Assembly: GCF_007097385.1 (NCBI RefSeq)
Contig: NZ_VJZS01000004.1
Span: forward strand, 1 to 64,000
DNA length: 64,000 nucleotides
Reading direction: 5' to 3'
Origin: Flavobacterium sp. ZT3R18
GTDB taxonomy: Bacteria; Bacteroidota; Bacteroidia; Flavobacteriales; Flavobacteriaceae
Both the position numbers and the translations under genes were made by a program. Below are positions 48,413 through 64,000 of this stretch, in pieces; position 1 is the stretch's first letter, and the number at the start of each line of letters is the position of its first letter. The notes beneath the pieces are model-generated. The model worked only from the letters and a program-made list of their open reading frames with translations, searched no databases and was not told where the DNA came from.

Positions 48413-48515
48413 ACTAAGTTACTGAGATTCTGAGTCTCTGAGTTTTTTTAAATTGTTACTTAAATCTAAATTGCTAAGAATCTTAGTGACTCAGAAACTT
48501 AGCAACTTAGAATCT
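48413..48515. repeat. ttactaagttact / agcaacttagaatc word repeats
   Basis: agttactaagttactgagat and gtgactcagaaacttagcaa are inverted, low-complexity words between two minus-strand genes. A related array is at 60560-60655. Confidence 0.55.
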
Positions 48516-55058: not shown

Positions 55059-57251
55059 TTGAAAACCAAACTTTTCCTCATCACGCCCCCGTTTACCCAA
55101 CTGAATACGCCTTATCCAGCAACGGCTTATATCAAAGGGTTTCTAAATACCAAAAATATTGAATCGGTTCAGGCGGATTTGGGGATTGAAGTGATTTTGA
55201 AATTGTTTTCGAAAGAAGGGTTAAAAGATTTGTTTAAAGTTCAAAGTTTAAAGTTTGAAGGACTGTCTGATAATTCCAAGAGAATTTTCGCTTTACAGGA
55301 CGAATACGTTAAAACCATCGATTCGGTTATTGCTTTTTTGCAGGGAAAAAATCCAACCTTGGCGCTTCAAATTTGCCAGGAAGATTTCTTGCCGGAAGCA
55401 TCCCGTTTTGCACAATTGGAAGAATTGGACTGGGCTTTTGGAACGATGGGAACACAGGACAAAGCCAAACATTTGGCGACTTTGTATCTTGAGGATATCT
55501 CCGATTTTATTGTGGAATGTGTCGATGAAAATTTTGGTTTCAGTCGGTATGCGGAAAGACTGGGGCGTTCTGCCAATTCTTTTGATGAATTGTACGAAGC
55601 CTTGCAACAAGAACCCACTTATATTGATAATATTTTGCTTTCTATTTTAAAGGACAGAATCGAAACCATTCAACCCACTTTATTCTTGATTTCGGTTCCA
55701 TTTCCGGGGAATTTATATTCGGCTTTTCGCTCGGCGCAATGGGTGAAAAAGCATTATCCGAATATCAAGATTTCTATGGGTGGTGGTTTCCCTAATACAG
55801 AATTGCGTTCGCTATCTGATGCTCGGGTTTTTGAGTTTTTTGATTATATCACTTTGGATGATGGTGAAACGCCGATAGAAGAATTAATTTTCAATATTGA
55901 AAATCCAAAACATAATTCGTATAAAAGAACCTTTTTATTAGAAGACGGTTTAGTAGTTTATAAAAATAATTCCACTAAACCAGATTACAAACAATCCCAA
56001 GTGGGAACGCCCGATTATTCGGATTTGCTTTTGGATAAATACATTTCGGTTATCGAAATTGTGAATCCGATGCACCGTTTGTGGAGCGACGGACGCTGGA
56101 ATAAACTCACGATGGCGCACGGTTGCTATTGGGGGAAATGCACATTTTGCGATATTTCTTTGGATTATATCAAGGTGTACGAGCCTGTAGCCGCAAGTTT
56201 GTTGTGCGACCGAATGGAAGAAATGATTGCCCAAACGGGAGAAACCGGTTTTCATTATGTCGATGAAGCTGCACCACCCGCTTTGATGCGAGCATTGGCA
56301 CTCGAAATCCTAAGCCGAAAACTGGCAGTAACTTGGTGGACAAACATTCGTTTCGAAAAAAGTTTCACCCAAGATTTGTGTCTGTTACTCAAAGCCTCAG
56401 GCTGTATTGCTGTTTCGGGAGGGCTAGAAGTGGCTTCGGACAGATTACTGAAACTAATTGACAAAGGTGTAACTGTAGAGCAAGTGGCGAAAGTCACTCG
56501 GAATTTTACCGAAGCAGGCGTAATGGTACACGCCTATTTGATGTATGGTTATCCAACGCAAACCGTTCAGGAAACGGTTGATAGCCTCGAAATGGTGCGT
56601 CAATTGTTTGAGGCTGGGGTTTTGCAATCTGGTTTTTGGCATCAATTTGCGATGACGGCGCATAGTCCGGTGGGTATGTTTCCGGAGCAATTTGGGGTTC
56701 TGAAAGAAAATGAAGCTATAGGCACTTTTGCCAATAACGATATTAATTATACCGATTCTACGGGAATCGATCACGATAAATTTAGTTTTGGACTCAAGAA
56801 ATCGCTGTTCAATTTTATGCACGGGATTTGTTTTGACTACGAATTGCAGGATTGGTTCGATTTTAAAATTCCGAAGACGAAAATAGGAGCTGATTTTATT
56901 TTTGATGCCCTTCAAGAGGAATCCAATTTTAATACCAAACCTACAGCCAAAATGGTTTGGCTAGGCGGAAAACCATCAATTGAAACATTCACTAAAACCA
57001 AAAAAGGGAATTCTTGGGAAATGATGTCGCTGACTTTTCACGATAAAAAAGAAAGTTTTACCGTTCAGACCAATAAAACGGAAGGAGAATGGTTGGTTGA
57101 AATGCTTCATAAAATCTCGGTTTCGAATGCTAAAACCTATTCTTTTCAGGAAGTAAAAGCCGATTTTGAAACTCATTTGGAGGATTTCGAATTGTTCTGG
57201 TATTCCAAACCTGTGAATACTTTGAGGGAATTCGGGTTGTTGGTGCTTTAG
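55059..57251 (+). CDS. B12-binding-type radical SAM protein
   Basis: A 730-residue protein that starts with TTG (KTKLFLITPPFTQLNTPYPA), with no ATG nearby. Residues about 1-290 are a cobalamin-binding-like domain (LFLISVPFPGNLYSAFRSAQ, ISMGGGFPNTELRS). The radical SAM core follows (about 330-600) with the cluster motif HGCYWGKCTFCDIS, spaced C-x4-C-x2-C instead of the usual C-x3-C-x2-C. The B12 His motif DxHxxG is not evident. The C-terminal roughly 130 residues are unassigned. The substrate is unknown. Confidence 0.85.
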   Translation: MKTKLFLITPPFTQLNTPYPATAYIKGFLNTKNIESVQADLGIEVILKLFSKEGLKDLFKVQSLKFEGLSDNSKRIFALQDEYVKTIDSVIAFLQGKNPTLALQICQEDFLPEASRFAQLEELDWAFGTMGTQDKAKHLATLYLEDISDFIVECVDENFGFSRYAERLGRSANSFDELYEALQQEPTYIDNILLSILKDRIETIQPTLFLISVPFPGNLYSAFRSAQWVKKHYPNIKISMGGGFPNTELRSLSDARVFEFFDYITLDDGETPIEELIFNIENPKHNSYKRTFLLEDGLVVYKNNSTKPDYKQSQVGTPDYSDLLLDKYISVIEIVNPMHRLWSDGRWNKLTMAHGCYWGKCTFCDISLDYIKVYEPVAASLLCDRMEEMIAQTGETGFHYVDEAAPPALMRALALEILSRKLAVTWWTNIRFEKSFTQDLCLLLKASGCIAVSGGLEVASDRLLKLIDKGVTVEQVAKVTRNFTEAGVMVHAYLMYGYPTQTVQETVDSLEMVRQLFEAGVLQSGFWHQFAMTAHSPVGMFPEQFGVLKENEAIGTFANNDINYTDSTGIDHDKFSFGLKKSLFNFMHGICFDYELQDWFDFKIPKTKIGADFIFDALQEESNFNTKPTAKMVWLGGKPSIETFTKTKKGNSWEMMSLTFHDKKESFTVQTNKTEGEWLVEMLHKISVSNAKTYSFQEVKADFETHLEDFELFWYSKPVNTLREFGLLVL

Positions 57252-57337: not shown

Positions 57338-58720
57338 CTATTTTTTCCAATCCCCTCGTAAATGATAGGCTTTAGGTTTTGTAAAAGCGCGAATCCCAAC
57401 ATGAGAAAGTGTCGAACCAAAACCAGAATTTTTTCGCCCAGACCAAGGTAAAGCGGGAGAAACACGGTCGCAGCAGTTCCAATAACTGGTGCCAGAGTTT
57501 ATTTTTGTTAAAATATTTTCTCCTCTTTTTTGTGATTTTGAATATACGGCGGCGGTCAGTCCATAGGTGGTGTCATTCATAAGTTGGATTGCCTCTTCAT
57601 CATTTGCAACCTTCATAATTCCGATAATTGGTCCAAAAGATTCTTCCTGCATTACTAGCATATCGTTTGTTACGTTTGTTAATACAGTTGCTTCAAAATA
57701 GTTACCAGGTTTGTCGATACGTTTTCCGCCACAGTTAATTTTAGCCCCTTTTGCCAAAGCATCTTTTATTTGATTTTCAAGAATTTCTATTTGTGCAGAT
57801 CGAGTAAGTGCCCCTAGATAAACGCCATCAGCTGTAGGTAAGCCAGATTTCCATGATTTTACTTCTTCAACAAAGTATCGAACATAATCATCATAGTTTT
57901 TTTCTTGAACGTAAATTCGTTCTACAGAGCAACAACTTTGACCATTATTGTAAAAAACGCCATCGGCAGTTCCAATGGCAATGTTTTTAATATCTTCTAC
58001 ATCATCAGCGACATATAATGGGTCTTTTCCACCCAATTCAATTTGGCAAGGCACCATTTTAGAGGCTACTTTTTGGTATATAAATTGCCCCGTTTTATAA
58101 GAACCTGTAAAAAAATAACCGTCAAAATTCATTTCTAATAATGCAGCTCCTATGTCGCCTTTTCCTATAGCAATTTCAAAAACATTGGAAGGTACACCCG
58201 CTTCTAAAATCAATTTCTGAATTTCTAATCCTGTTAAACTAGCATACTCCGAAGGTTTATAAAGCACGGAATTTCCAGCTAATAATGCAGGGACAATTAC
58301 GTTAATGCCTACCAAATAAGGATAATTCCAGGCCGAAATATTGCAAACAACACCTATTGGCTCATATACGATTTTCTCTCCCATACCGTCTTGCTCACTC
58401 ATGTATTCGTCAGCCAAATATTTTTTAGCATTAGTGCAAAGCCAAGTAATTCGGGCTATTCCTCCATTGATTTCGTTCTTGGATTGTTGTATAGGTTTAC
58501 CAACTTCCGAAGTTAGTATTTGAGCAAGATTTTCAATGTTGATTTCTAATAAATCTTTGAAATTAAATAGTATAGCGATCCTTTGATCCAAATGTTTTTC
58601 TTTCCAATCCAATTGACCTTTCTGTAAGTTGTCAAATTTTAGCGCTAAGCTTGCTTCGTTGTCTTGATTTATTTTTGTAATTGTTTCTCCTGTAGCTGGA
58701 TTTTTTATTTCTAGTTGCAT
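57338..58720 (-). CDS. Aldehyde dehydrogenase family protein
   Basis: A 460-residue NAD(P)-dependent enzyme. The cofactor loop is FFTGSYKTGQFIYQ, the general base is Glu in QIELGGKDPLYV, and the nucleophile Cys is in NNGQSCCSVERIYV. It is closest in style to succinate-semialdehyde or betaine-aldehyde types. In this cluster it would oxidise a gamma-glutamylated aldehyde. The start overlaps the upstream hydrolase gene by 10 nt. It is the last gene of the operon. Confidence 0.9.
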   Translation of the reverse strand: MQLEIKNPATGETITKINQDNEASLALKFDNLQKGQLDWKEKHLDQRIAILFNFKDLLEINIENLAQILTSEVGKPIQQSKNEINGGIARITWLCTNAKKYLADEYMSEQDGMGEKIVYEPIGVVCNISAWNYPYLVGINVIVPALLAGNSVLYKPSEYASLTGLEIQKLILEAGVPSNVFEIAIGKGDIGAALLEMNFDGYFFTGSYKTGQFIYQKVASKMVPCQIELGGKDPLYVADDVEDIKNIAIGTADGVFYNNGQSCCSVERIYVQEKNYDDYVRYFVEEVKSWKSGLPTADGVYLGALTRSAQIEILENQIKDALAKGAKINCGGKRIDKPGNYFEATVLTNVTNDMLVMQEESFGPIIGIMKVANDEEAIQLMNDTTYGLTAAVYSKSQKRGENILTKINSGTSYWNCCDRVSPALPWSGRKNSGFGSTLSHVGIRAFTKPKAYHLRGDWKK

Positions 58721-59379
58721 ATAGTGTTGATTAAAGCTGTTCTTATGTTTTTACTAAAAGGATTTTCGAAATCATTCATTCTTTCGGGATGCCATTGCAC
58801 GCCCAATATAAACTGTTTCTCAGGATTACTAGATTCTATTACTTCAATAACTCCATCTTCAGAAAAGGCTGTGGCTTTCAAATCCATTCCCAATTTGTCA
58901 ATGGATTGATGGTGTGCACTATTGACTTCCCCTTTTTTTTGATTTACAATTTTATAAAAAAGAGAATCTTCTTCTACTCGAATGGGGTGCATTTTATCTA
59001 ATTCCTCTTTTTTATGAATCTCATTTTGAGTTTTGCCATTGTCTAAATGCAAAGTTCCACCTTTATATACATTAATTAATTGTAACCCTCTGCAAATACC
59101 AAGAATGGGTTTTTTTTGTTCAAGGCACAATTTTAAAACTTCGGTTTCAAATAGATCACGGGAGACATTAAATTCTGATGGTGCATTTTCATAGGTTACC
59201 TCTTCGGTTGGTTTCATATCAATGCCACCTGTAAGCACTACCGCATCACAATTTGTTACGGCTTCCAAATTATTTTCTTCGTAGGAAAGCACTATGATTT
59301 CTATGTTTTTATCATTTTCTTTTATCCATTTTGGATAATTATGAAAATTAGTTTCGGAAAATGTAACACCTATTTTCAT
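58711..59379 (-). CDS. Gamma-glutamyl-gamma-aminobutyrate hydrolase-like (PuuD family)
   Basis: A 222-residue class I glutamine amidotransferase-type hydrolase. The nucleophile Cys is in KPILGICRGLQLINVYKGG, and His/Glu are in LGVQWHPERM. PuuD-family enzymes release glutamate from gamma-glutamyl amides. It starts 3 nt after the alcohol dehydrogenase stop and overlaps the aldehyde dehydrogenase gene. In this context it would free the final amino acid and recycle glutamate. Confidence 0.88.
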   Translation of the reverse strand: MKIGVTFSETNFHNYPKWIKENDKNIEIIVLSYEENNLEAVTNCDAVVLTGGIDMKPTEEVTYENAPSEFNVSRDLFETEVLKLCLEQKKPILGICRGLQLINVYKGGTLHLDNGKTQNEIHKKEELDKMHPIRVEEDSLFYKIVNQKKGEVNSAHHQSIDKLGMDLKATAFSEDGVIEVIESSNPEKQFILGVQWHPERMNDFENPFSKNIRTALINTICN

Positions 59380-59382
59380 TTT

Positions 59383-60519
59383 TTAAAGCGCTTCTAAATA
59401 CAATTTTTTAAAATCTTCTCTACTCACTGGTTTGGGATTGTTTGGATGGGCAAAATCTGCCAATGCCAAATCTGCTAGGGTTTCAATATGTTCTAATTTG
59501 ACCCCTATTTCGCTTAATTTATGGGGAATATTTATTTTGGTATTCAAATCAAAAAGGTATTGCACTACGGCTTCTCCAGTATGTTCTTTCAATTCTAGAG
59601 TTTGTGCAATTCGTTTGAATTTGTCTTCGTTTCCTTCAATATTGAAACGCAGACCGTATGGAATATTTATGGCATTTGCCAAGCCATGATGGATGTCTAA
59701 TAAAGAAGAAAGAGGGTGAGCCAAAGAGTGTACCACTCCAAGCCCCTTCTGGAATGCAATGGCTCCCATCATGGAACCCAGTAACATCTTACTTCGTGAT
59801 TCTATATCTGGATTGTTGGTCGCTTTTTCTAGAGATTCACTTATTAGTTTTATTCCTTCCAATGCAATTCCATCGCAAATAGGGTGGTAGTTCTTTGCCA
59901 AAAAGGCTTCCATATTGTGTGTTAATGCATCCATGCCAGTGGCTGCTGTGATAAATGCAGGCAGCTCCATAGTTAGCATAGGATCGGCAAACACAATCGC
60001 AGCCAAAAGTTTTGGCGAAAACAAAATCTTTTTTTGATGGGTTTCATCATCAGATATAATGGAGCTTCTACCTACTTCACTACCAGTACCAGCAGTAGTT
60101 GGAATAGTAATGAGCACTGGAACATCATTTGTAATATACACATCACCGCCTATTAAATCGTCATATTTAAAAAGGTCTTCTCGATGATTGATTCGTAAGG
60201 CGATGGCTCTTGCTACATCTAATCCAGCTCCACCACCTATACCAATTATACAATCGCATTTAGCAGTGTCATAGGCGTCTCCACCTTTATAAACATCAGA
60301 TTTTACTGGGTTTTTGTGAATATCGTAAAATATTTCTGGTTCAAAACCAGCCTCTTTCAAATCGGTAATTATTGTTTTAAAAAAAGGTAATGCAAAGACA
60401 TTTGGATCCGTTGCGATTAAAGGCTTTTTGAATCCGTTTTTTAATAAATAGGCAGGCAATTCTTTTATAACACCTGCTCCAAAACGAATTATTGTCGGGA
60501 AATTAAATTGTGATATCAT
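59383..60519 (-). CDS. Iron-containing alcohol dehydrogenase
   Basis: A 378-residue group III alcohol dehydrogenase. The NAD loop is GIGGGAGLDVARAIALR and the phosphate clamp PTTAGTGSEVG. Metal ligands are in GMDALTHNMEAFLAKNYHP and VVHSLAHPLSSLLDIHHGLA. Its presence instead of a PuuB-type amine oxidase points to an alcohol-bearing substrate. It is separated from the ligase gene by a 144-bp repeat-bearing gap but lies in the same orientation. Confidence 0.9.
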   Translation of the reverse strand: MISQFNFPTIIRFGAGVIKELPAYLLKNGFKKPLIATDPNVFALPFFKTIITDLKEAGFEPEIFYDIHKNPVKSDVYKGGDAYDTAKCDCIIGIGGGAGLDVARAIALRINHREDLFKYDDLIGGDVYITNDVPVLITIPTTAGTGSEVGRSSIISDDETHQKKILFSPKLLAAIVFADPMLTMELPAFITAATGMDALTHNMEAFLAKNYHPICDGIALEGIKLISESLEKATNNPDIESRSKMLLGSMMGAIAFQKGLGVVHSLAHPLSSLLDIHHGLANAINIPYGLRFNIEGNEDKFKRIAQTLELKEHTGEAVVQYLFDLNTKINIPHKLSEIGVKLEHIETLADLALADFAHPNNPKPVSREDFKKLYLEAL

Positions 60520-60559
60520 ATTTTTTGTTGTGTGTTTTGTTTTTTAACTATTCGTTTTT

Positions 60560-60655
60560 TTTTAGTTGCTAAGTTTCTAAGAATCGTGGCTTTTGTGTTT
60601 TAATTGTCAGCTTTAATCTTAGCAACTTAGTGTCTTAGAATCTTTGGTTCTATTG
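60560..60655. repeat. gttgctaagtttctaagaat word repeats
   Basis: ttgctaagtttctaagaatc and atcttagcaacttagtgtct are inverted words between the ligase and alcohol dehydrogenase genes. Similar to 48413-48515. Confidence 0.55.
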
Positions 60656-60663
60656 AGAATAAA

Positions 60664-62022
60664 TTAAATTATTTCAAAATAGCGTTTCATTTCCCAATCG
60701 GTTACTACTTTGCTAAATTGTCTCCACTCCCATTCTCTGGATTGTGCAAAATGTTGAACAAATGTTTCGCCAAAAAGTTCGTTTGCAATTTTTGAATTCT
60801 TCATTAGTAGGGTACTGTCTATTAAATTTTTAGAAAGGCGACCATTGCTTTCATCGGTATAACCATTTCCAATTGTTCGGGCTTGTTTGAGTTCTAAATT
60901 GTTTTTTATTCCATACAATCCAGCGGCCAAACAAGCCGATAGGGCTAAATAGGGGTTGGTGTCTGCCCCAATAATTCTAGTTTCCAGTCGGCAGGATTTA
61001 GAACCCAACGGCAAAGATCGCAACGCCACAGTGCGATTGTCAATCCCCCAAGTAAGAGTTGTTGGTGCCCAAGCTCCTTCAACCAAACGTTTGTATGAGT
61101 TTACTGTTGGCGCAATCATGGGTAAAATTTGGGGTAAGCAAAGCAATTGACCCGCAATGTAACTACGCATCATATCACCCATTTTGTTGGGATCGTTTTC
61201 GTCAAAAAATAAATTTTTGGTTGCGTCAGCATTCCAAATACTTTGATGTATGTGACCGCCACAACCGGGTAGGTTTTCAGAAATTTTGGCCATAAAAGTA
61301 GCCATAATGCCATGTTTGTATGCAATTTCTTTTACCGAAGTTTTAAAAAGTGTTGCTCTGTCTCCAGACAAAATGGAAGTGCCGTATTGTATGGCAACTT
61401 CATAAGTACCAGGGCCTGTTTCGGTATGCAATCCTTCTACAGGAATATCAAATTGAGTTAATAGGTCGAATAAATCTGTAAAATAATCATTCTTTAACGA
61501 GGTTCTCAAAATAGAATATCCAAACATTCCTGGGGTAAGAGGATTGAGGTTTTGAAAATTTTTGGCTGCAGCCGATTCTGGAGTTTCGGCAAAATTAAAC
61601 CATTCAAACTCTTGAGAAACCAAAGGTGTAAATCCAGCTATATTGGCTTGATTTTCTATTTTTTTTAATAATTGTCTTGGGCAAATTTCAAGTGGATTTC
61701 CATCAACTTTTATAAATTCGCCAAGAAAAAAGGGTATGTTGTTTTCCCAAGGAATTTTTCGAAATGTGTTGAAATCCAGTTTTACTTTGGCATCTGGATA
61801 TCCAGTGTGCCATCCAGTATAAGTGCTATTGTCATAAGACACATCGGCCATATCCCAACCAAAAACTACATCACAATATCCAAAATCACTTTCATAAATG
61901 GATAGAAACTTTTCCTTAGAGATATATTTACCTCTCAAAACGCCATCAATGTCACAAATAGCTAGCTTTACTTTGCCAGAAGGATGATGTTTTATGTAAT
62001 CTATAATTTCAGCCTTGTTCAT
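60664..62022 (-). CDS. Glutamine-synthetase-family gamma-glutamyl ligase (PuuA/GlnA4-like)
   Basis: A 452-residue type of glutamine synthetase fold that joins glutamate to an amine in an ATP-dependent reaction. Acidic metal ligands are in GLHTETGPGTYEVAIQYG, the ATP His segment is GCGGHIHQSIW, and the C-terminal Arg site is NRTVALRSLPLGSKSCRLE. It lacks the tidy GlnA adenylylation loop, and its neighbours argue for amine catabolism rather than ammonia assimilation. I use ATG 62022 (MNKAEIIDYIKHHPSGKVKL); an upstream in-frame ATG at 62106 adds a low-complexity leader. Confidence 0.88.
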   Translation of the reverse strand: MNKAEIIDYIKHHPSGKVKLAICDIDGVLRGKYISKEKFLSIYESDFGYCDVVFGWDMADVSYDNSTYTGWHTGYPDAKVKLDFNTFRKIPWENNIPFFLGEFIKVDGNPLEICPRQLLKKIENQANIAGFTPLVSQEFEWFNFAETPESAAAKNFQNLNPLTPGMFGYSILRTSLKNDYFTDLFDLLTQFDIPVEGLHTETGPGTYEVAIQYGTSILSGDRATLFKTSVKEIAYKHGIMATFMAKISENLPGCGGHIHQSIWNADATKNLFFDENDPNKMGDMMRSYIAGQLLCLPQILPMIAPTVNSYKRLVEGAWAPTTLTWGIDNRTVALRSLPLGSKSCRLETRIIGADTNPYLALSACLAAGLYGIKNNLELKQARTIGNGYTDESNGRLSKNLIDSTLLMKNSKIANELFGETFVQHFAQSREWEWRQFSKVVTDWEMKRYFEII

Positions 62023-62187
62023 TTTTAATGTTTTTTTTGAATTTATAAAAGGGTTTAAAAAATGATGTGTTTTTAGAGTTTGTTTTTTTGTGTTAATCAA
62101 ATTCATAGATAGTTACAACAGAGACTTGATTTGTGAATTCAGTTTACAATCATTATGAAACTATGCAATTTAATAGCATTCAATGTG

Positions 62188-63483
62188 TTATTTATGAAAA
62201 ATTTTGAACAATATATAACTGATAATGATAAATCCAAAATAATACAAAGCTAAAGTCTGGTTATAATAACTCATTGCAACAAGCGATATCAATCCGATAA
62301 CTAAAGCCACAATAGGTAGAATTGGATACATTGGTACAACAAAAGGGCGTTCCAATTCTGGCTCCGTTTGACGTAATTTTAATAAAGACATCATAGAAAG
62401 TACATATAAAGTAAGTGCTCCAAAAACGGCTATTGTAATAATGTCGCCAGTTTTGTTTGTGAATAAAGCTATAATTCCCAAAAGCATATTTATTATCAGT
62501 GCATTTGAAGGGGTTTTAAATTTTTCATTTACTTTTCCAAGAAATTTTGGTGCGTAACTTACTTTTCCAAACTCCATTGTTGCTCTACCGCCTGCAAGTA
62601 TAAGTCCGTGAAAAGAAGCAATTAGCCCAAAAAGACCAACGCCAATAAGCAATTGATACATGATACTATTTGAAGAAACTACCATACTCATAGCCATTGG
62701 CAAGGGAGAATCGGATAGACTGCCGTCTGCTTTATAAACTACTTTTTCCCAACCACCAACACCAATAGCGGCAACATAAACCAGTACACATAATAGTAAT
62801 AATGTAAAAAGCGCACTTCCAAATCCTTTTGTAATATCTCTTTGCGGATTTTTAGATTCTTCTGCTACATTAGCAATTCCTTCTATTCCAAGAAAAAACC
62901 AGATTGCAAATGGGATTGCTGCAAATATGCCACCCAAACCATTTATACTTGGATTATGAGTAAAATTTTCGACAGTAAAATGTGGAATTGTAACACCAAA
63001 AAATAAAATTAATTCGCCAACGGCTAGAATTGTTATCAATAATTCGAATGTTGCAGCAAGTTTAACACCAATTATATTAAGAATTGTAAATATGAAGTAA
63101 GCAATAATTGCAAAACAAACAATATTTATCTGAGGGAAGTTTAGATTTAAATAGGCGCCAATGGCAAATGCAATGGCTGGCGGAGCAAATACAAATTCAA
63201 CAATTTGCGCCAAACCAGTAACGAAACCAAGATCTTTTCCAAAGGCTCTATTGGCATAATCAAAACCACCTCCAGCTTTGGGTATGGCACAGGCTAATTC
63301 AGAATACGAAAAACTAAAACAGGCATACATAATTGCAATTATTATTGTGGCAATTCCCATTCCATAAGTCCCCGCTTTTTCCAGACCTAAATTCCATCCA
63401 AAATACATTCCAGAAATCACATAACCTACTCCCAAACCCCAAAGCAATAGAGGGGACAACGTTTTTTTTAAATGTGTGCTCAT
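62188..63483 (-). CDS. APC-family permease, ethanolamine-permease-like
   Basis: A 431-residue inner-membrane transporter with 12 predicted helices. The opening LLWGLGVGYVISGMYFGWNL and AIPKAGGGFDYANRAFG resemble ethanolamine/amino acid permeases of the Eat type. It is the first gene of the catabolic cluster and would import its substrate. The gap to the ligase gene is about 165 bp. Confidence 0.87.
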   Translation of the reverse strand: MSTHLKKTLSPLLLWGLGVGYVISGMYFGWNLGLEKAGTYGMGIATIIIAIMYACFSFSYSELACAIPKAGGGFDYANRAFGKDLGFVTGLAQIVEFVFAPPAIAFAIGAYLNLNFPQINIVCFAIIAYFIFTILNIIGVKLAATFELLITILAVGELILFFGVTIPHFTVENFTHNPSINGLGGIFAAIPFAIWFFLGIEGIANVAEESKNPQRDITKGFGSALFTLLLLCVLVYVAAIGVGGWEKVVYKADGSLSDSPLPMAMSMVVSSNSIMYQLLIGVGLFGLIASFHGLILAGGRATMEFGKVSYAPKFLGKVNEKFKTPSNALIINMLLGIIALFTNKTGDIITIAVFGALTLYVLSMMSLLKLRQTEPELERPFVVPMYPILPIVALVIGLISLVAMSYYNQTLALYYFGFIIISYILFKIFHK

Positions 63484-63772: not shown

Positions 63773-64000
63773 ATGAGTCCAACCTTTAAAGTAAAAGTAA
63801 ATGACACTTTTCAATTTGATTTTGAAAAGGAAAGTATTTCTCAACTGGATGCCGTACCTACGGGAGTAAATGAATTTCATGTACTGCATCAAAACACACC
63901 TTATAAAGCGGAAATCATCACTTCGGATTTCAATCACAAAAGCTATACGGTTAAGGTAAACAATACCAATTATACGGTAGCGATTTCAAATCCTTTGGAC
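63773..64000 (+). CDS. Acetyl-CoA carboxylase biotin carboxyl carrier-like protein (partial)
   Basis: ATG 63773 opens MSPTFKVKVNDTFQFDFEKE and runs off the window after 76 codons. The N-terminal segment matches the leader domain of Bacteroidota acyl-CoA carboxylase biotin carrier subunits; the biotinylated Lys domain lies beyond the edge. Call based on this N-terminus only. Confidence 0.65.
   Translation, partial: MSPTFKVKVNDTFQFDFEKESISQLDAVPTGVNEFHVLHQNTPYKAEIITSDFNHKSYTVKVNNTNYTVAISNPLD

Follow-up and report, generated by a model that had tools for sequence, protein, structure and literature searches.

A probable five-gene Bacteroidota variant of the gamma-glutamylation route, most likely for ethanolamine, in Flavobacterium sp. 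ZT3R18

Ethanolamine released from phosphatidylethanolamine is a common source of nitrogen and carbon. Which amine is handled by a run of five genes in Flavobacterium sp. ZT3R18, and by what route? We addressed this question in a 64,000-nt window of contig NZ_VJZS01000004.1 (all coordinates below are those of the window), where the initial annotation had described a cluster for amino-alcohol catabolism by gamma-glutamylation. The open reading frame (ORF) list and profile searches with Pfam and NCBIfam confirmed its five gene families on one strand: five intact ORFs lie on the minus strand between 57338 and 63483, and all five proteins exceed their Pfam family cut-offs. They encode a 431-aa APC-superfamily permease of the ethanolamine permease type (Eat-like, TIGR00908; 62188..63483; AA_permease above cut-off), a 480-aa putative gamma-glutamyl-amine ligase of glutamine-synthetase (GS) fold (60664..62106; Gln-synt_C, PF00120, 307 bits), a 378-aa iron-containing alcohol dehydrogenase proposed to act on gamma-glutamylethanolamide (59383..60519; Fe-ADH/ADH_Fe_C, PF00465/PF25137), a 222-aa class I glutamine-amidotransferase-fold protein proposed to be a gamma-glutamylglycine hydrolase (58711..59379; Peptidase_C26/GATase, PF07722, 160 bits), and a 460-aa aldehyde dehydrogenase proposed to convert the gamma-glutamyl aldehyde to gamma-glutamylglycine (57338..58720; Aldedh, PF00171, 411 bits). 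The tight spacing described for the last three genes was measured as a 3-nt gap between alcohol dehydrogenase and hydrolase and a 10-nt overlap between hydrolase and aldehyde dehydrogenase. The hydrolase gene had been placed last; this was wrong, as it sits between the two dehydrogenase genes.

We consider it likely from the gene families and their arrangement that these genes serve to break down a small primary amino alcohol, ethanolamine being the most likely one, by a B12-independent route without a microcompartment. The Eat-type permease would import ethanolamine, and the ligase would use ATP to couple it to glutamate, forming gamma-glutamylethanolamide. The iron alcohol dehydrogenase would then oxidise the hydroxyl to the aldehyde, the aldehyde dehydrogenase would yield gamma-glutamylglycine, and the amidotransferase-fold hydrolase would free glycine and regenerate glutamate. 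By family and gene order, a ligase, an alcohol dehydrogenase, an aldehyde dehydrogenase and a gamma-glutamyl hydrolase are encoded together, as befits a pathway of this type. The initial proposal was of the right kind, the enzyme set fitting a conversion of amine to gamma-glutamylamide, aldehyde and acid followed by hydrolysis, but the route had already been published: it is known from Streptomyces (PMC6529630) and Phaeobacter (PMC10132767). What is new is therefore a Bacteroidota five-gene version with a third-clade ligase, a variant rather than a new pathway; we found no Bacteroidota version of the route in the open-licence literature.

Published work covers parts of this chemistry. In vitro, GlnA4 makes gamma-glutamylethanolamide; the subsequent reactions leading to glycine and glutamate are proposed (PMC6529630, whose references include a FASEB abstract of 2015 on a novel ethanolamine pathway in bacteria). 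In Phaeobacter, the proteins of the operon, gamma-glutamylethanolamide dehydrogenase included, rise on phosphatidylethanolamine, and the authors describe the Phaeobacter genes as closely related to C. salexigens and A. tumefaciens genes demonstrated by Vetting et al. 2015 (PMC10132767). Csal_0678 binds ethanolamine (PMC4646407), and the name GoaS has been proposed for such ligases (PMC11335346). A review of the gamma-glutamylation route names Flavobacterium among ethanolamine users, the excerpt giving no route for it (PMC9397018).

The Eat-like assignment of the permease was borne out by the NCBIfam ethanolamine permease equivalog TIGR00908, which it matched with 445.8 bits against a cut-off of 381.75. 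The same model was passed by two Bacteroidota permeases and by the 'eat' protein of Thermomicrobium roseum. E. coli PuuP and four permeases encoded in IpuC-type clusters, of which two clusters are near-identical, had no NCBIfam match at 1e-40. The probable substrate would be shared with the eut ethanolamine ammonia-lyase operon; a EutB search of the ZT3R18 genome returned no match (among 14 control genomes only E. coli gave one), EutC and other ethanolamine routes not having been searched. Within that limit, the absence of a EutB match supports the B12-independence initially suggested. Shell proteins are not encoded among the five genes and were not sought elsewhere in the genome.

The ligase fell well below the cut-offs for GlnA (TIGR00653, 219.5 versus 429), type III glutamine synthetase (205 versus 470) and PuuA (NF045547, 192.8 versus 650). 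Aligned with E. coli GlnA, it retains the metal residues E129, E131, E212, E220, H269 and E357, together with G265, H271, R321, R339, R344 and R359 (GlnA numbering), so that most residues of the ATP and glutamate sites are kept; R339 we take to be a site residue. The roles of all sites except R339 follow PMC6529630. GlnA N264 is replaced by Pro, and Asn occurred at this place in no other ligase inspected. The flap residue Glu327 of GlnA is Trp in the window ligase and in IpuC-like ligases, and Phe in Csal_0679 and in Eto-type loci; published assignments for this place are Phe in GlnA4 and Trp in PauA7 (PMC6529630). A structure model of only moderate quality (mean pLDDT 71.6) was used to identify solved relatives by title. 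Structure 5dm3 is Csal_0679. The genome holds two further Gln-synt_C genes on contig C21, and the window ligase is therefore probably not needed for ammonia assimilation. A housekeeping glutamine synthetase was rejected as improbable in view of these two genes, the missed cut-offs and the change of E327 to Trp.

We placed the ligase relative to PuuA, IpuC and GlnA4 in a tree of 47 hand-picked rows that did not include E. coli GlnA and whose midpoint root fell on E. coli PuuA. Two ligases missed by the ORF screen (L090 and L097) were added by coordinates, and GlnA4 and Phaeobacter MED193 were represented by plasmid loci of like gene content. The tree holds three clades, A, B and C, whose branching order it leaves open. 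Clade A (100/100) contains Csal_0679 (5dm3), Brucella chain 11zs, two Rhodobacterales loci, T. roseum, with a ligase-short-chain dehydrogenase (SDR)-eat locus, and Nonomuraea L097, whose ligase-aldehyde dehydrogenase-SDR-amidotransferase locus resembles the Streptomyces GlnA4 cluster. Clade B (100/99) comprises IpuC-type ligases accompanied by P450s. In clade C (100/99) the window ligase stands with the Bacteroidota ligases included in the tree and with nine from proteobacterial plasmids. It thus groups neither with PuuA or IpuC nor with the GlnA4-like ligase, its clade being distinct from that of the ethanolamine-type ligases (Csal_0679, Eto-type, GlnA4-like locus). Within clade C, ligases of five-gene loci form a clade with those of permease-ligase and ligase-alone rows (99/95), excluding the kinase-type ligases described below. 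A larger tree agrees, with a support of 97 for the five-gene clade (134 of 135 rows, one ligase below 430 aa being dropped).

The remaining three enzymes carry the residues expected of active members of their families. The alcohol dehydrogenase has D197, H201, H264 and H277 or H278, which we take to be metal-ligand motifs; C96, H197 and E199 of the hydrolase presumably form its catalytic triad, and C263 or C264 with E228 are presumably the catalytic residues of the aldehyde dehydrogenase. The designation of the hydrolase as PuuD-type stands at the superfamily level, where Peptidase_C26 is reached, and not at the level of PuuD itself (NF008471, 63.2 bits versus a cut-off of 266). In a tree of 27 hand-picked sequences with long outgroup branches, from which the L091 dehydrogenase, missed by the ORF screen, was left out, the iron alcohol dehydrogenases from Bacteroidota clusters form one clade.

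Conservation of the arrangement was assessed in 80 Bacteroidota loci, the best 80 of at least 568 ligase relatives and so a sample rather than a census. All five genes occurred in the same order and on the same strand at 48 of these 80 loci, so the grouping is not a chance one; the count includes L070, whose last two genes lie about 5 kb further on, and a second locus screen differed by one complete locus (47 versus 48). Three other loci lacked the permease only, two had permease, ligase and dehydrogenase, one had ligase and dehydrogenase, 15 had permease and ligase, and 11 had the ligase alone; some of these incomplete loci are cut by contig ends. A separate feature of five permease-ligase pairs (L016, L026, L031, L032 and L045) is a different divergent aldehyde dehydrogenase upstream, with 28-31% identity to that of the window.

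Split arrangements also retained the partner enzymes. From 27 loci with a non-adjacent dehydrogenase (26 plus L059) we hand-picked 12 for a whole-genome search, and a close alcohol dehydrogenase (77-81% identity) was present in all 12 genomes, as in both positive controls. In five genomes the three genes for this enzyme, the hydrolase and the aldehyde dehydrogenase formed one block, and in one genome the three were interspersed with other genes; in the other six the examined stretch contained neither of these partners, and in one of them (L059) the dehydrogenase was only about 8 kb from the ligase. All seven split-arrangement genomes checked for the aldehyde dehydrogenase had it. Across 395 Bacteroidota genomes (E <= 1e-80), the ligase was found in 41 and the dehydrogenase in 12. 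Eight of the 12 dehydrogenase copies are 65-100% identical and all eight adjoin a ligase; the other four (38-41% identical) are in genomes without one. A close dehydrogenase was thus never seen without the ligase (Fisher p 7e-9, or 6.7e-8 minus the ZT3R18 genome). Of the seven other genomes with both, five have the complete five-gene set, and in two the hydrolase was not detected.

The same enzyme set extends to proteobacterial plasmids. Those of Legionella lytica and Photobacterium sp. DA100 encode a ligase, an aldehyde dehydrogenase, an iron alcohol dehydrogenase and an amidotransferase, and that of Photobacterium sp. GJ3 has the same four enzymes with an upstream TIGR00908 permease (552.8 bits). 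Burkholderia vietnamiensis has the ligase, aldehyde dehydrogenase and amidotransferase, and at one Rhizobium and one Paracoccus locus a GMC oxidoreductase lies nearby in place of the iron enzyme. Since the alcohol-oxidising slot is filled by an iron alcohol dehydrogenase, an SDR or a GMC protein according to the locus, the pattern fits an alcohol intermediate. Elsewhere in the wider clade, three ligases (L087, L096 and L157) adjoin spermidine/putrescine-type ABC transporters and probably act on other amines.

Comparison with described systems shows where the five-gene version departs from them. Two Rhodobacterales plasmid loci (RpiR, N-formylglutamate amidohydrolase, three TRAP genes, ligase, aldehyde dehydrogenase and an alcohol dehydrogenase annotated as iron-containing) are arranged in the same order as the Phaeobacter ethanolamine operon described in the literature. 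That operon, of Phaeobacter sp. MED193 and Chromohalobacter salexigens (EtoVWX, ETAGA, GAADDH, GETADH and GGAH; names from PMC10132767), resembles the window in its ligase, aldehyde dehydrogenase, alcohol dehydrogenase and gamma-glutamylglycine hydrolase, but has a TRAP transporter instead of an Eat-type permease, an RpiR regulator and another gene order. At the two loci of this order, the ligase and iron alcohol dehydrogenase belong to other branches than those of the window, and the hydrolase is of the N-formylglutamate-amidohydrolase type rather than the amidotransferase fold. The GlnA4 pathway of Streptomyces coelicolor (SCO1610-SCO1615) shares a GS-fold ligase that has lost E327, an aldehyde dehydrogenase, a glutamine amidotransferase and, in the cluster of some species, a permease gene (PMC6529630); it uses an SDR instead of an iron alcohol dehydrogenase, and the ligase of its stand-in, Nonomuraea L097, lies in another clade. 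IpuC-type isopropylamine clusters (Paenarthrobacter aurescens TC1 pTC1/pTC2, ipuC as annotated) likewise have a GS-fold ligase, dehydrogenases, an amidotransferase and, in one of them, a nearby amino acid permease, but add P450, ferredoxin and reductase, and their ligases form a separate, well-supported clade. The E. coli Puu pathway has the same ligase, aldehyde dehydrogenase and hydrolase families (22-33% identity over four comparable pairs), with the PuuB oxidase and PuuE aminotransferase where the window has an alcohol dehydrogenase.

Several observations weigh against the proposed reading. The window ligase lies outside the ethanolamine-type clade, and forcing it there made the tree 71.5 log units worse (p-AU 2e-45; long-branch row L157 dropped, and the group named after the first tree had been seen). 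Direct orthology with Csal_0679 or the GlnA4-like ligases is rejected by the tree and this test, and the substrate therefore cannot be read across from GlnA4 by kinship. Iron alcohol dehydrogenases from the proteobacterial clusters fall in another group than the Bacteroidota ones (91/75), together with four ligase-free Bacteroidota copies, so that a common ancestry of the two versions does not follow from the dehydrogenases. GlnA D50, a residue tied to ammonium (PMC6529630), is matched by an Asp in the window ligase, although this part of the alignment is gapped. The clade-C ligases of Rhodobacteraceae M382 and Pseudorhizobium adjoin an aminotransferase and a spermidine/putrescine-type ABC transporter; because clade-C members lie near polyamine-type transporters or a kinase-like gene, the substrate may vary within the clade. 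Several Emticicia ligases stand alone beside a GntP permease, with none of the other four genes nearby. Finally, the best NCBIfam model for the alcohol dehydrogenase is 4-hydroxybutyrate dehydrogenase (337.5 bits, below the cut-off of 500).

This last match, to an enzyme that acts on a longer chain, would with the separate clade of the ligase suit the same chemistry on another amino alcohol (3-aminopropanol, 1-amino-2-propanol, alaninol or similar), the acid released then not being glycine. The name has little weight, however, because the dehydrogenase of an Eto-type locus gives the same best model (346.7 bits), and we rejected it as a substrate clue; the permeases of the window and of Photobacterium sp. 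GJ3 both reach the ethanolamine equivalog cut-off, and we regard another amino alcohol as unlikely. A polyamine or alkylamine route resembling Puu or Ipu, with putrescine or isopropylamine as the ligase substrate and a later role for the dehydrogenases, is distinctly improbable. Its attractions are the PuuA-, PuuC- and PuuD-like proteins (29%, 30% and, over 159 residues, 33% identity), the Trp shared with IpuC-like ligases at the E327 place and the polyamine-type transporters beside some ligases of the window's clade. Against these, none of the five genes encodes an amine oxidase, an aminotransferase, a P450 or a ferredoxin, the ligase scores far under the PuuA cut-off (193 versus 650) and lies outside the IpuC-type clade (100/99), and the Puu- and Ipu-cluster permeases do not match the model that the window permease passes; we rejected this route on cut-offs, clade and permease model.

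We give even less credence to the genes being neighbours without a shared pathway, with the ligase working elsewhere, for example in nitrogen storage. The solitary Emticicia ligases would suit such an arrangement, as would the frequency of the cassette-free ligase (33 of 41 genomes). Yet the three such Emticicia genomes searched (L014, L019 and L083) hold both the alcohol and the aldehyde dehydrogenase elsewhere, Emticicia sp. CRIBPO carries all five genes, and among the 395 genomes the close dehydrogenase keeps to those with a ligase. (The two genes on either side of the ligase at these three loci are, in L014, a weakly ATP-grasp-like gene and a GntP-family permease gene.) Ethanolamine, as judged from protein families and gene context, is thus the probable substrate of the five-gene route.

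The 33 cassette-free ligase loci revealed another gene company. At all 33, the ligase gene is followed on the same strand by a kinase-like gene for a 347-aa protein and then by a HAD-IIA phosphatase gene (L112-L144; e.g. L114:5279-8549 and L118:5022-8391), with gaps mostly below 60 nt and reaching 647 and 2225 nt. Two members of the 347-aa family had no NCBIfam match at 0.001, five searched against Pfam to E 10 gave chance-level matches or none, and one searched against the PDB to E 1 gave a chance-level match only. Lys52, Asp211...Asn216 and Asp230, within STNHVYRV, DWNIGNF and WDYDWF, are invariant in the family, and we take these motifs to resemble the aminoglycoside/choline kinase fold. 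In the three HAD proteins inspected, the position of the second Asp of the first motif is Tyr or Phe. This cluster, for which a literature search found no paper, puts the same ligase clade to a second and different use, and its pathway intermediate would be a phosphorylated gamma-glutamyl compound. Kinase-type ligases do not form one clade; one set is sister to the five-gene clade (91/86). As the five-gene ligases branch among them, the kinase type may be the older in Bacteroidota.

Our broader picture is tentative, and we hold it to be somewhat less than an even proposition: a third GS-fold ligase lineage, distinct from the ethanolamine and IpuC types, may, together with an alcohol dehydrogenase of its own, have been recruited to the breakdown of ethanolamine in Bacteroidota, in Photobacterium and in a Legionella relative, and elsewhere in Bacteroidota been built into a ligase, kinase-like and HAD-IIA pathway. 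If the ethanolamine route is real, some Bacteroidota (Pedobacter, Chitinophaga and relatives, and a few Flavobacterium) would use ethanolamine with neither B12 nor a microcompartment, and surveys limited to eutBC or to the TRAP-type binding protein, as in PMC10132767, would miss them. For this ligase clade, predicting the amine takes the gene partners as well as the ligase sequence.

Among 199 genomes of the genus, the ligase (E <= 1e-60) and the close dehydrogenase occurred in the ZT3R18 genome only. Two species outside that draw, F. gawalongense and F. laiguense, have the ligase. All five genes of F. laiguense lie between the same two flanking genes as in the window; F. gawalongense has the other four genes, and no permease was found beside them. 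In six of 11 relatives examined, the flanking genes are direct neighbours and none of the cluster genes lies between them; in the other five the second flanking gene was not found within the 1.5 kb examined. In the ligase tree, the proteins from Flavobacterium group with the Emticicia sp. CRIBPO and Lacihabitans ligases (100/100). Gain in a small Flavobacterium group fits best, loss elsewhere being the less likely alternative, and this lineage probably acquired the cassette horizontally, to judge from its distribution and flanks.

The permease and ligase genes are 81 nt apart. For many ligase relatives outside Flavobacterium, among the matches listed, the alignment begins only near residue 29, which is a Met, and the ligase may therefore start at 62022, giving 452 aa and a gap of 165 nt. 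The 144 nt between ligase and alcohol dehydrogenase (60520..60663, minus strand) contain an imperfect inverted repeat with a predicted RNA fold of -17.1 kcal/mol (z -3.81 versus shuffles). Similar 16-mers recur in the opposite orientation near 48.4 kb (48413-48511), and a short repeat near 60616 has 14 genome sites versus 5 for a backward control. A promoter scan was at chance level (28 found, 28.0 expected), and terminator-like sites numbered 6 versus 4.5 expected. On the plus strand the cluster is flanked by a short frame starting near 63773 and by a radical-SAM gene (55059-57251), whose 730-aa product matches 13 NCBIfam models, under the cut-off of each, and is present in 98 of 101 Flavobacterium genomes.

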